From an uncultured Bacteroidota bacterium (lineage in GTDB: Bacteria; Bacteroidota; Bacteroidia; Flavobacteriales; Flavobacteriaceae), in assembly GCA_902622595.1 (NCBI GenBank), contig CACNQM010000001.1, forward strand, positions 248,001 to 312,000: a stretch of DNA of 64,000 bases, read 5' to 3'. A program made the translations under genes and the position numbers. Positions 35,315 to 38,703 of this stretch are shown here, one piece after another. The notes beneath the pieces are model-generated. The model had not been told where the DNA came from. It did no database searches and worked only from the letters and a program-made list of their open reading frames with translations. Position 1 is the first letter of the stretch. Each line of letters starts with the position of its first letter.

Positions 35315-36211
35315 TTGAAAAAGATTGCTGCCATTGATATTGGATCTAATGCTGTTAGAATGCTAATATGCTATATTATCCCGTCTGGAAAAGAATATAT
35401 ATTTCAAAAAAATTCATATTTAAGATTACCTTTAAGACTTGGAGAAGACTCTTTCAGTAATGGAATAATTTCAGAGGATAAGATTAAAACACTCTCAGAA
35501 GCACTTATTTCATTTAAGTATATGATGAAAGTCCATAACGTTGAGGAGTATCAAGTATATGCTACTTCAGCCCTAAGAGAATCTTTGAATTCTTCAAATG
35601 TGATTTCAAAAGTAAAAAAAGCAACTGGTTTAAAAATTAACTTAATAACCGGTTTAAAGGAAGCTAAAATTATTGCAAAAGGAAATACACTATCTAAGTT
35701 AGATTATAATAAAACTTATTTATATGTTGATGTAGGTGGAGGAAGTACCGAATATTCTATTTTAAAAAAAGGGGAAAATAAAAAATCTAAGTCATTTAAA
35801 TTTGGTACTGTAAGGCTTCTTAATAAATTAGATGTTTCTCATACTAAGAATGAGATTGCTAGTTGGTTAACTTCAAATATTGATTTCAAAGATAAAATCA
35901 AGTTATTTGCAACTGGAGGAAATATTAGTAAAATTCAATCAATATCAGGAACAAAAAATGGTAAACCAATATCATATATTTCCGTAAAAGATCTTTTGAA
36001 CAAAATGATAGAATGTGATTTTAAAGAGAGGATGATAAAATTTAATTTAAACCCTGATAGAGCTGATGTAATTATACCAGCATTAGAAATATTTATTTTA
36101 ACAATGGAGTCTGCAAAAGCAAATAAAATGTTTATTCCAAAAACAGGTCTTGTTGATGGTATGATAAAAGAGACTTTCTTTGAAAGAAATGGAAATAAGC
36201 TAAATCCTTAA
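35315..36211 (+). CDS. ppx: Exopolyphosphatase (Ppx/GppA family)
   Basis: 298-residue ASKHA-fold phosphatase that removes terminal phosphate from polyphosphate (or pppGpp). It begins IAAIDIGSNAVRMLI and contains YVDVGGGSTEYS and the LFATGGNISK segment. It corresponds to the short, two-domain form without the C-terminal HD domain of E. coli Ppx. The start codon TTG abuts the ppk1 TAA. Pairing with ppk1 supports polyphosphate turnover. The last 12 bases overlap the 3' end of the dnaX C-terminal part on the other strand. Confidence 0.93.
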   Translation: MKKIAAIDIGSNAVRMLICYIIPSGKEYIFQKNSYLRLPLRLGEDSFSNGIISEDKIKTLSEALISFKYMMKVHNVEEYQVYATSALRESLNSSNVISKVKKATGLKINLITGLKEAKIIAKGNTLSKLDYNKTYLYVDVGGGSTEYSILKKGENKKSKSFKFGTVRLLNKLDVSHTKNEIASWLTSNIDFKDKIKLFATGGNISKIQSISGTKNGKPISYISVKDLLNKMIECDFKERMIKFNLNPDRADVIIPALEIFILTMESAKANKMFIPKTGLVDGMIKETFFERNGNKLNP

Positions 36212-36757
36212 ACTAAATTCCTCAATTAGCGAAATTATACTCTCATTATTTTTTTGAATCATCTCAAGCTTTTCTTTACTATTAAGAAATTTCTTTTTAT
36301 CTGTTTCTTCAGATAATTTTACATCAACAATGATTGAATAATTATTTAATTCTTTAGAAATAAATGTTTGTATTTTACTCTTATAACCATTCATCTCTTT
36401 ATAATTCATTTTGTTAATAGTATTGATAATAATTAAATTATCATTTATAAATGGTTGATTCATTTTTAAGAGAGATAATATATTATTATTACCGTCCTTT
36501 TTTTCAAGTTCACAGAATTTTTTCCATGCTATCTCAAAGTCATTATCAGTAAAATCATCATTAGGAAGTTCTAAATCCACATTATCATTCTCTTTCTCAA
36601 CAGATTTTTTAAAGTTAAGACTTGCAATTGATAATGATGAGATATCGTTTATTTGAGGTTGTTTAAATAATTTATCAGAGTCTTTATCTTCAATTTCTAT
36701 AATTTCTTTTAGCTTGCTAACTTTTAATTCAGTAGTCTTAATCAAAGATTTTTTTTT
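36200..36757 (-). CDS. dnaX: DnaX C-terminal part (tau-specific), -1 frame
   Basis: Open frame of about 183 codons continuing DnaX in the -1 frame. It holds a charged, low-complexity linker (about the first 60 residues) and then a compact domain (WKKFCELEKKDGNNNIL through FISKELNNYSIIVDVKLSE) like the C-terminal region of flavobacterial DnaX. It has no ATG; the first possible start is TTG at 36745, without a leader. It is best read as the tail of a 533-residue tau-like protein made by a shift at the A11 tract. The tail would contact helicase and polymerase by analogy with tau. An independent small protein or a sequencing indel are the alternatives. Confidence 0.75.
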   Translation of the reverse strand, partial: KKKSLIKTTELKVSKLKEIIEIEDKDSDKLFKQPQINDISSLSIASLNFKKSVEKENDNVDLELPNDDFTDNDFEIAWKKFCELEKKDGNNNILSLLKMNQPFINDNLIIINTINKMNYKEMNGYKSKIQTFISKELNNYSIIVDVKLSEETDKKKFLNSKEKLEMIQKNNESIISLIEEFSLRI

Positions 36758-37800
36758 TTAGTGCTATCTAATGATGCTATTTTCATTAAACAAAGCTCAA
36801 TATGCATTCTTTTATCATTTACTCTTTGATAATTGACCAAAGTTTCATTAATTATTTCTATCATTAAGATTAGGTCTTTATCTAAAATATTTTTTGAATG
36901 TTCAATATATCTTTTACTTAATTCACTTTTATGATCTGAAAGTTTATCGTTTGAGTTAAGTCTGTAAACTAGCAGTTCTCTTAAATGCTTTGATAATCCA
37001 TTCAAAAAATTTAAATCATCAAATCCTTTATCATATATATCATTATAGAGACAAAGGATAGCCGGTATGTCTTTGTCGTTGATTAAATCTGACAACCTAA
37101 AATATGTATTAAAGTCAATTATATTTAAATTAGAAGTTACTTCGTCTAACGTAAGATTAGAGTCAGTAAAACTTACTAATCTATCAAATATTGATAATGA
37201 ATCTCTAATTGACCCGTCAGATCTTTCAGCTATTAGTAATAAAGAGCCATCTTGATGCTTGATTTTTTTTTCTTTACATATTCTTATAAGCAGATTTCTA
37301 ATAGATTTACTGTCAACTTTTTTAAAATCATATATTTGACATCTTGAAAGAATTGTTGGTAAAATCTTGTTTTTTTCAGTTGTTGCTAATATAAAAACTA
37401 CATGTTCGGGTGGTTCCTCTAGAGATTTTAAAAATGCATTAAATGCTTGATTGGAAAGCATATGAACTTCATCAATAATATAAACTTTATATCTACCTTT
37501 CTGAGGTGGAATTCTAATTTGGTCAGTAATATTCCTAATATCTTCCACAGAATTATTTGATGCGGCATCTAATTCAAAAATATTATATTCAAAATCTTCA
37601 TCTATATTATTTATAGTCTTTGCTAATATTCTTGCACATGATGTTTTACCTACACCTCTAGGTCCACAAAAAAGTAGTGCTTGAGGAATATTATCTTTGT
37701 CTATTGCATTATTTAAGGTTTTTACAATTGCATCTTGACCTATAATTTCCTCAAAGTTTTTTGGTCTGTACTCTGAAGCAGAAGAAGTTGAACTAATCAT
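36742..37800 (-). CDS. dnaX: DNA polymerase III clamp-loader subunit DnaX (short form)
   Basis: AAA+ clamp-loader ATPase. From ATG 37800 the frame-0 product is 352 residues: it starts ASEYRPKNFEEIIGQ, has Walker A GPRGVGKTS near 41-49, Walker B and DEVHMLS, the SRC sensor (LSRCQIYDF), and the collar domain III to about residue 345. It stops at TGA seven codons after an A11 tract begins, just where gamma-type products end. Frame-0 codons run on upstream to 37935, but they lie antisense to RNase P RNA and its promoter and do not resemble DnaX, so they are excluded. The 3' part of the gene is in the -1 frame. Confidence 0.92.
   Translation of the reverse strand: MISSTSSASEYRPKNFEEIIGQDAIVKTLNNAIDKDNIPQALLFCGPRGVGKTSCARILAKTINNIDEDFEYNIFELDAASNNSVEDIRNITDQIRIPPQKGRYKVYIIDEVHMLSNQAFNAFLKSLEEPPEHVVFILATTEKNKILPTILSRCQIYDFKKVDSKSIRNLLIRICKEKKIKHQDGSLLLIAERSDGSIRDSLSIFDRLVSFTDSNLTLDEVTSNLNIIDFNTYFRLSDLINDKDIPAILCLYNDIYDKGFDDLNFLNGLSKHLRELLVYRLNSNDKLSDHKSELSKRYIEHSKNILDKDLILMIEIINETLVNYQRVNDKRMHIELCLMKIASLDSTKKKNL
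36749..36759 (-). promoter_or_regulatory. A11 slippery tract, probable dnaX frameshift site
   Basis: The mRNA reads AGC ACT A11 T CTT TGA in frame 0. Moving back one base on the A tract gives ...AAA TCT TTG ATT AAG and opens the C-terminal frame. One added A by polymerase slippage would have the same effect. Only a weak 4-base hairpin is visible downstream, so slippage on the homopolymer itself is the likelier mechanism. A missed A in the sequence would also explain the arrangement. Confidence 0.65.
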
Positions 37801-37875
37801 CAAGACAAATATAAAGATTGAGAAAATTTTATTATCAATTGATATTTTTTTTTTAATAAAATTATCAACAAATAT

Positions 37876-37883: not shown

Positions 37884-37887
37884 TTGT

Positions 37888-38170
37888 GCAAGCCATCTTA
37901 TCGCTGATTTTTTCAGAGGAAAGTCCGGACACCAAAGAGCAATGTAACGGGTAACACCCGTCATCTGTAATGGATAGGAATAGTGCAACAGAAAGTATGT
38001 ACAGGTAATGCTGTAGTGGAATCTTGTAAACTCTGCATGGTGAAACGCCAAGTATATCTACAACTTAAAACTGCTCGTTTTATGTAGAAGGGTAGGCGGT
38101 TTGAGTGTAATAGTAATATTGCATCTAGATAAATGATAAGACTAGACAGAATCCGGCTTATAGGCTTGCT
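37888..38170 (+). ncRNA. rnpB: RNase P RNA, bacterial class A
   Basis: Catalytic RNA of ribonuclease P, which trims the 5' leaders of tRNA precursors. The universal 5' core AGAGGAAAGTCCGGAC is at 37914-37929 and its partner ACAGAATCCGGCTTA closes the P4 pseudoknot at 38146-38160. P1 is formed by GCAAGCC (37888-37894) and GGCTTGC (38163-38169), followed by a run of T that can serve as terminator. Length (about 283) is low but within the class A range. The 3' end overlaps the last 13 bases of rsmD on the opposite strand, and the gene is divergent from dnaX. Confidence 0.95.
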
Positions 38171-38703
38171 TTTTTTATAATGCTTAATATTGAGCCTCCA
38201 TATTTTCTTTCTTCAACATCATTATATTTTTCTGCTAAAGAAACATTTGAACTATGTTCAATAATAATTTGACCGTTATCTAAAAGAATATCTCTTTGCA
38301 TAATTATATTCAATAATTCAAAATATTTGTCTTTTGAAAATAAATAAGGTGGATCTGCAAAAATTATATCAAAATTTTCATCATTTTTCATCAAAAAATC
38401 AATATAGTTTTTTCTTTTAGTAATAATATTAAATCCATGCTTAGCAGAAGTTTCATTTATAAATTTTATACATTTTAAGTTGTTATCAACAGAAATAATT
38501 TTTTTGGTTCCTCTTGATGCAAATTCAAAAGATATGTTTCCTGTGCCTGCAAATAAATCTAAAACTCTAATTTCATCAATATTAAATCTGTTAATTATTA
38601 TATTGAAAAGAGATTCCTTCACTTTATCGGTAGTTGGCCTGCTTGGGATATCTTTAGGCGCTCTAATAGATAAACTCTTTTTACTTCCTGATATTATTCT
38701 CAT
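38158..38703 (-). CDS. rsmD: 16S rRNA (guanine-966-N2)-methyltransferase RsmD
   Basis: SAM-dependent methyltransferase for G966 of 16S rRNA. The 181-residue protein begins MRIISGSKK and has SRPTTDKVKESLFNII, the SAM loop VLDLFAGTGNISFE and the catalytic DPPY (FADPPYLF). Its start overlaps the DUF3822 stop by 23 bases, so it is the last gene of a three-gene run. Its final codons form the complementary strand of the RNase P RNA P1 helix and T tract. Confidence 0.94.
   Translation of the reverse strand: MRIISGSKKSLSIRAPKDIPSRPTTDKVKESLFNIIINRFNIDEIRVLDLFAGTGNISFEFASRGTKKIISVDNNLKCIKFINETSAKHGFNIITKRKNYIDFLMKNDENFDIIFADPPYLFSKDKYFELLNIIMQRDILLDNGQIIIEHSSNVSLAEKYNDVEERKYGGSILSIIKKASL

Follow-up and report, generated by a model that had tools for sequence, protein, structure and literature searches.

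A poly-A tract at the split dnaX gene of an uncultured Flavobacteriaceae bacterium as a probable transcriptional slippage site

Split dnaX genes with a poly-A run at the junction of two ORFs have been described by Antonov et al. (2013, PMC3711429); 17 such genes were reported, nine of them with A10, and transcriptional slippage was suggested. In Thermus thermophilus, dnaX contains one A9 run, at which mRNA slippage gives gamma and tau; the RNA-DNA hybrid is 9–10 bp in length (PMC1088944, PMC5009743). In the Escherichia coli gene, tau is encoded in frame 0, and its signals are A_AAA_AAG, an upstream Shine-Dalgarno-like stimulator and a 3′ stem-loop (PMC5009743, PMC3711429). Stem-loop-mediated slippage at U5C5 was described for the Roseiflexus IS630 transposase (PMC5009743). 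The comparisons made below refer to the accessible parts of these papers.

The dnaX gene studied here lies on the minus strand of the window, the whole stretch of 64,000 nucleotides (contig CACNQM010000001.1, positions 248,001–312,000) from an uncultured Flavobacteriaceae bacterium. In window positions, its features are as follows.

36742..37800, minus strand: dnaX frame 0, gamma-like product, 352 codons plus TGA (TIGR02397, PF12169)
36749..36759, minus strand: proposed A11 slippage tract (direct reading; kept in genus and family loci)
36742..36744, minus strand: frame-0 stop TGA that ends gamma (direct reading)
36738..36740, minus strand: TAA that closes the +1 frame three codons after the tract (direct reading)
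36200..36748, minus strand: tau tail in the -1 frame, 182 codons plus TAG (NF011531 match; purifying selection)
36763..36777, minus strand: weak 5′ stem, not claimed to be functional (-2.6 kcal/mol; site of a strong hairpin in most other Flavobacteriaceae)

The A tract is exactly 11 nucleotides in length and uninterrupted, running from 36759 down to 36749. Frame 0 starts with the ATG at 37800–37798, contains 352 codons and ends with ACT AAA AAA AAA AAT CTT TGA. Direct reading confirmed the original prediction of one 352-codon gamma-like core followed at A11 by a DnaX-like tail in the -1 frame; however, the stop is located two codons past the tract, not seven codons into or after it. In the -1 frame, 182 more codons are open (36748 down to 36203), followed by the TAG stop at 36202–36200. 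Addition of one A to the mRNA, or removal of two, gives a tau of 533 residues, which agrees with the predicted size of about 533; it is the only one of the three registers that gives tau.

In the profile search, the core matched TIGR02397 dnaX_nterm (E 5.1e-109), plus the ATPase, lid and domain III families. The domain III match (PF12169) extends to residue 393 of the listed ORF (397 residues), shortly ahead of the stop, which places the break at the end of domain III, as had been predicted. The tail matched positions 468–612 of the 614-position DnaX model NF011531 (E 9.3e-15); against Pfam, it matched no family. The listed ORF starts with TTG and overlaps the RNase P RNA (RF00010, 194.9 bits; 37885–38176, plus strand), which lies head to head with dnaX; therefore, translation more likely starts at the ATG at 37800. 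Another minus-strand run, A10 (37845–37854), is located ∼45 bases upstream of this ATG, and similar T runs adjoin rnpB at several genus loci. The four-cysteine zinc module is usual in DnaX. It is absent between the Walker A and DAAS motifs in the window and in L004–L061; among the readable loci, four Cys were found in this stretch in 0 of 20 genus, 0 of 30 family and 43 of 76 named Bacteroidota loci.

Like the genes of Antonov et al. (PMC3711429), the window dnaX is composed of two -1-related ORFs that meet at poly-A, with gamma in frame 0. Different from them, the run is A11, compared to A10 in nine genes there. Production of tau by recoding, as in the described type, is predicted for the window gene, with the selection on the tail as indirect support. 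The two-ORF poly-A dnaX has been known since 2013 and the window gene belongs to it; the genera of the nine A10 genes may include flavobacteria. Undivided relatives with the same tract, +1 genes and the 5′ hairpin, all described below, do not occur in the accessible parts of PMC3711429. Our literature search, with most subscription papers outside its reach, found no dnaX hairpin-A10 arrangement in Bacteroidota and no class-level conservation. What appears to be new is the wide, frame-indifferent conservation of the site, together with the adjacent hairpin in relatives.

The window gene shares with Thermus dnaX a run of at least nine A and nearby stops in both non-tau registers (PMC1088944, PMC5009743). 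However, tau is in frame 0 at A9 in Thermus, whereas gamma is in frame 0 at A11 in the window; the Thermus-like state was found in 8 of 22 genus relatives. Compared to E. coli dnaX, the gene, the domain boundary and the two kinds of product are the same (PMC5009743, PMC3711429), but neither A_AAA_AAG nor the 3′ stem-loop was found in the window dnaX. In most other Flavobacteriaceae, the stem-loop directly 5′ of the dnaX run resembles that of the Roseiflexus IS630 transposase (PMC5009743), with the difference that the run is A10 rather than U5C5; the stem of the window itself is weak.

We propose, with a probability of about 0.8, that the A11 tract serves as a site of programmed transcriptional slippage, through which one dnaX gene would give both gamma and tau. 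The analysis shows the tract, the frames and their conservation, the selection that acts on the tail, and stops in the two other frames; from them we infer the slippage itself, its direction and efficiency, and the two proteins. The RNA-DNA hybrid (9–10 bp) of RNA polymerase would fit wholly inside the A run, and the polymerase would produce dnaX mRNAs that differ in their number of A. An mRNA with 11 A (or 10, 13 or 14) would reach a stop in about three codons and give gamma, consisting of domains I–III; an mRNA with 12 A (or 9 or 15) would continue into the tail and give tau, of about 533 residues. Since the polymerase would set the frame under this proposal, the register encoded in the genome would matter little, and relatives could switch between registers.

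The genus set contained 25 genomes, including that of the window; the dnaX core was found in 22, and G014, G015 and G023 gave weak hits only. The original prediction had raised the conservation of tract and split in close relatives. The tract is present in all 22 loci, as A10 (8), A11 (13) or A12 (1), and the split in 14, which have gamma in frame 0 and tau in -1. The other eight are undivided, with tau in frame 0; they all retain the tract, different from the undivided, tract-free relatives that had been named as contrary evidence. On one tree of the dnaX core built without the junction, the frame state switched at least four times, and the two non-tau frames close within six codons in 22 of 22 loci. 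Outside the tract, AAG accounts for 274 of the 1196 lysine codons of the genus dnaX genes, and 28 of the 29 other lysine columns (Lys in at least 18 of 22 loci) contain it at least once; none was found inside the tract. In ten chosen genus pairs, omega is 0.15–0.35 for the tail and 0.03–0.14 for the core. The tail values of the split pair L001/L004 (0.25) and the undivided pair L018/L019 (0.23) are alike; the tail is under purifying selection in both states.

The family set was composed of 149 genomes, one per genus and that of the window included; G086, whose dnaX match was cut, and five genomes that lacked a full match were left out, and all 142 other loci were used. A8–A13 is present in 141 of the 142, with A10 in 114 of them; the spread of the tract in flavobacteria had been left open by the original prediction. 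Tau is in frame 0, -1 and +1 in 116, 22 and 3 loci, respectively, and at least 25 frame-state changes were counted for genus and family together on a quick tree. L042, the sole locus without the tract, is still split and has tau in -1, which may be due to decay, an assembly error or a different mechanism. Taken together, these observations suggest that the dnaX split is one visible state of a recoding site conserved across Flavobacteriaceae, rather than an oddity of one draft genome.

Beyond the family, A8 or more was found in the scanned stretch of 27 of 29 order loci and 22 of 28 class loci, sets that are not random, since they hold the best-scoring loci of 60 genomes each and six of the order loci belong to the family. 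Two further class loci (L236 and L247) have A10 just past the scanned stretch. The named Bacteroidota set overlaps the family set (L101 within L259) and is hence not independent of it; 70 of its 80 loci have A9 or more, six have A4–A7 and four have no A4 run. Among the 70, tau is in frame 0, -1 and +1 in 46, 21 and 3 loci, respectively. The ten named loci without any A8+ run in the scanned stretch (L291, L292, L294–L296, L303, L304, L312, L326 and L329), several of which belong to Bacteroidales/Bacteroidaceae, look as if slippage had been lost. Outside the class, A9 was found in 5 of 20 new loci, as sorted by eye. In L058, L097, L162, L235 and L265, a contig end cuts the tail on which the frame call is based. 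In Bacteroidia outside the family, the A tract is common but not universal.

In undivided genes, the stops next to the tract were compared with those at control positions. In the family, both other frames close within seven codons in 111 of 115 undivided genes, compared to 25% of control positions. The same test gave 9 of 10 versus 22% in the order set, 13 of 14 versus 21% in the class set and 41 of 46 versus 22% in the named set; in the AT-rich genus it gave 8 of 8 versus 52% of control positions, which is weak evidence there.

Programmed -1 ribosomal frameshifting, by which ribosomes would slip on A_AAA_AAA or A_AAA_AAT in the tract to give tau while the rest terminate as gamma, is the alternative that survives best, and we consider it unlikely. 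It is used by E. coli dnaX (PMC5009743), and lysine A runs are slippery for ribosomes. Against slippage, we count that all 14 split genus genes need a -1 shift, which the ribosome would give equally; for the genus alone, ribosomal shifting would explain the split genes as well. The mildly negative downstream folding z of the genus, and the lack of support for the 5′ hairpin there, were counted on the same side. However, tau is in +1 in L125, L174, L189, L206, L272 and L276, and these genes therefore could not produce it by a -1 ribosomal shift. In Flavobacterium, one A divides the -1 state (A10: L268, L271 and L273) from the +1 state (A9: L272); the occurrence of both shift directions is a sign of transcriptional slippage according to the accessible parts of Antonov et al. 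(PMC3711429).

Further points count against the ribosome. An E. coli-like A_AAA_AAG is absent, T follows the tract, and no Rfam dnaX element was among the matches to E 5. We rejected a 3′ frameshift-stimulating stem-loop in the window gene, as 155 of 200 shuffled versions of the 60 nt downstream fold at least as well (z +0.70); downstream z is below -2 in 8 of 139 family loci and in 3 of 21 genus loci, the genus mean being -1.05. The conserved structure of the relatives is located directly 5′, where a translating ribosome would be expected to unwind it. Owing to the frame indifference, the rare +1 genes and the lack of a detectable 3′ stem-loop, we favor transcriptional slippage; of the two mechanisms that had been offered for gamma and tau at A11, it fits the comparative data better.

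Slippage is probably stimulated, in most other Flavobacteriaceae and in some further lineages, by a hairpin that the nascent RNA forms directly 5′ of the tract. One stem of at least four pairs, ending no more than 2 nt from the tract, is present in 124 of 141 family loci; it typically has eight pairs and a four-base loop. In 24-nt folding windows, the mean energy of the family is -6.12 kcal/mol at the tract and -0.2 to -3.3 elsewhere upstream (96 distinct sequences); outside the family, the values are -4.65 and -0.9 to -3.05, respectively (103 distinct sequences). The family loci also show a second, smaller energy dip (-2.8 to -3.3 kcal/mol) in windows that end ∼36–42 nt 5′ of the tract, and such a dip recurs outside the family. 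A synonymous null, in which codons were redrawn for unchanged amino acids, was beaten at p ≤0.05 by 50 of 95 family, 28 of 67 named, 6 of 20 class and 4 of 25 order sequences, all distinct. Of 91 loci treated as non-family, 47 have a stem with five or more pairs that ends no more than 3 bases from the tract, and 19 of these have p ≤0.05. Stems at other distances from domain III were found in Rufibacter, Hymenobacter, Mucilaginibacter, Pedobacter and Dyadobacter.

In 79 distinct sequences, 76.3% of cells pair, compared to 36–55% in slid registers. Changes on both sides were observed in 35 cells versus 16.1 in shuffles, a count reached by 0 of 500, which kinship can inflate. RNAalifold predicted no consensus structure for the same 79 sequences; mixed registers and stem lengths are the likely reason for its disagreement with the covariation counts.

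The window and its genus differ from this pattern. The window stem has an energy of -2.6 kcal/mol and a z of -1.92, and 9 of 200 shuffles fold as well. In 24-nt folding windows, 24% of 21 genus loci (5) beat the synonymous null at 0.05; among the 18 distinct sequences 3 did, with a mean of -1.63 versus -0.95 (Wilcoxon p 0.019). With 36, 42 and 48 nt, 1, 0 and 3 of 21 beat the null, and in the 24-nt positional profile, the genus shows no separate dip at the tract. We do not claim the 5′ hairpin for the genus of the window, the longer windows and the positional profile giving no clear signal; the hairpin seems to be weak or lost in this AT-rich genus. In the family, loci with A11 or more have weaker hairpins (-4.60 versus -6.55, p 0.004), a comparison confounded by lower G+C and shared ancestry.

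From these patterns, we lean slightly towards a broader reading, that much of Bacteroidia carries a frame-indifferent dnaX cassette, composed of one nascent-RNA hairpin at the edge of a hybrid-length A10 and stops in the two non-tau registers. The polymerase, not the frame of the genome, would set the gamma/tau ratio, and register changes would be nearly neutral, with at least 25 flips in the family; AT-rich, streamlined lineages such as the genus of the window would have lost the hairpin and lean on A11. The conservation points to a benefit, across a large bacterial group, of retaining both gamma and tau. The hairpin beside the run suggests that stem-loop-stimulated slippage, described for a transposase in the accessible part of PMC5009743, may also act in a core gene of replication. 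Annotation pipelines probably label such dnaX genes as frameshifted.

That the true tract is 9 or 12 A and dnaX one undivided frame, a sequencing or assembly miscall that the original prediction took as the main alternative, is very improbable. Homopolymers are error-prone, and the assembly, 85.7% complete in 9 contigs, is a draft; however, 14 of the 22 genus assemblies share the split at this tract, as do named isolates including Flavobacterium denitrificans and F. psychrotolerans, and the tract and its stops would stay even if the window copy were wrong. The split is most likely real, since relatives keep the A run there whichever frame is encoded. That dnaX is decaying, or that it gives gamma plus a tail protein with its own start, is equally hard to credit: a TTG overlaps the TGA stop in the window, but the first 40 codons of the tail lack ATG, GTG and TTG in 10 of the 14 split genus genes, the tail is selected at the omega given above for the ten chosen pairs, and it is fused in frame in eight relatives. 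Purifying selection on the tail and the absence of AAG inside the tract argue against both miscall and decay, and we rejected these two along with independent translation of the tail.

We also searched the whole 1.34 Mb assembly for A/T runs of at least 10, and found 26 after overlapping positions were merged by eye. Among them, only the dnaX tract has open frames of at least 60 codons on either side in different frames; a split at an A run, as in dnaX, is no common accident in this genome. Some other runs are located inside single undivided frames. Coding A10–A11 runs are present in a murD-like gene (L081, G000:C5:70484), a pseudouridine synthase (PseudoU_synth_2; L065, G000:C1:230652) and one further ORF (L084, G000:C6:49571), all of them undivided; in L081 and L065, the other frames close near the run.
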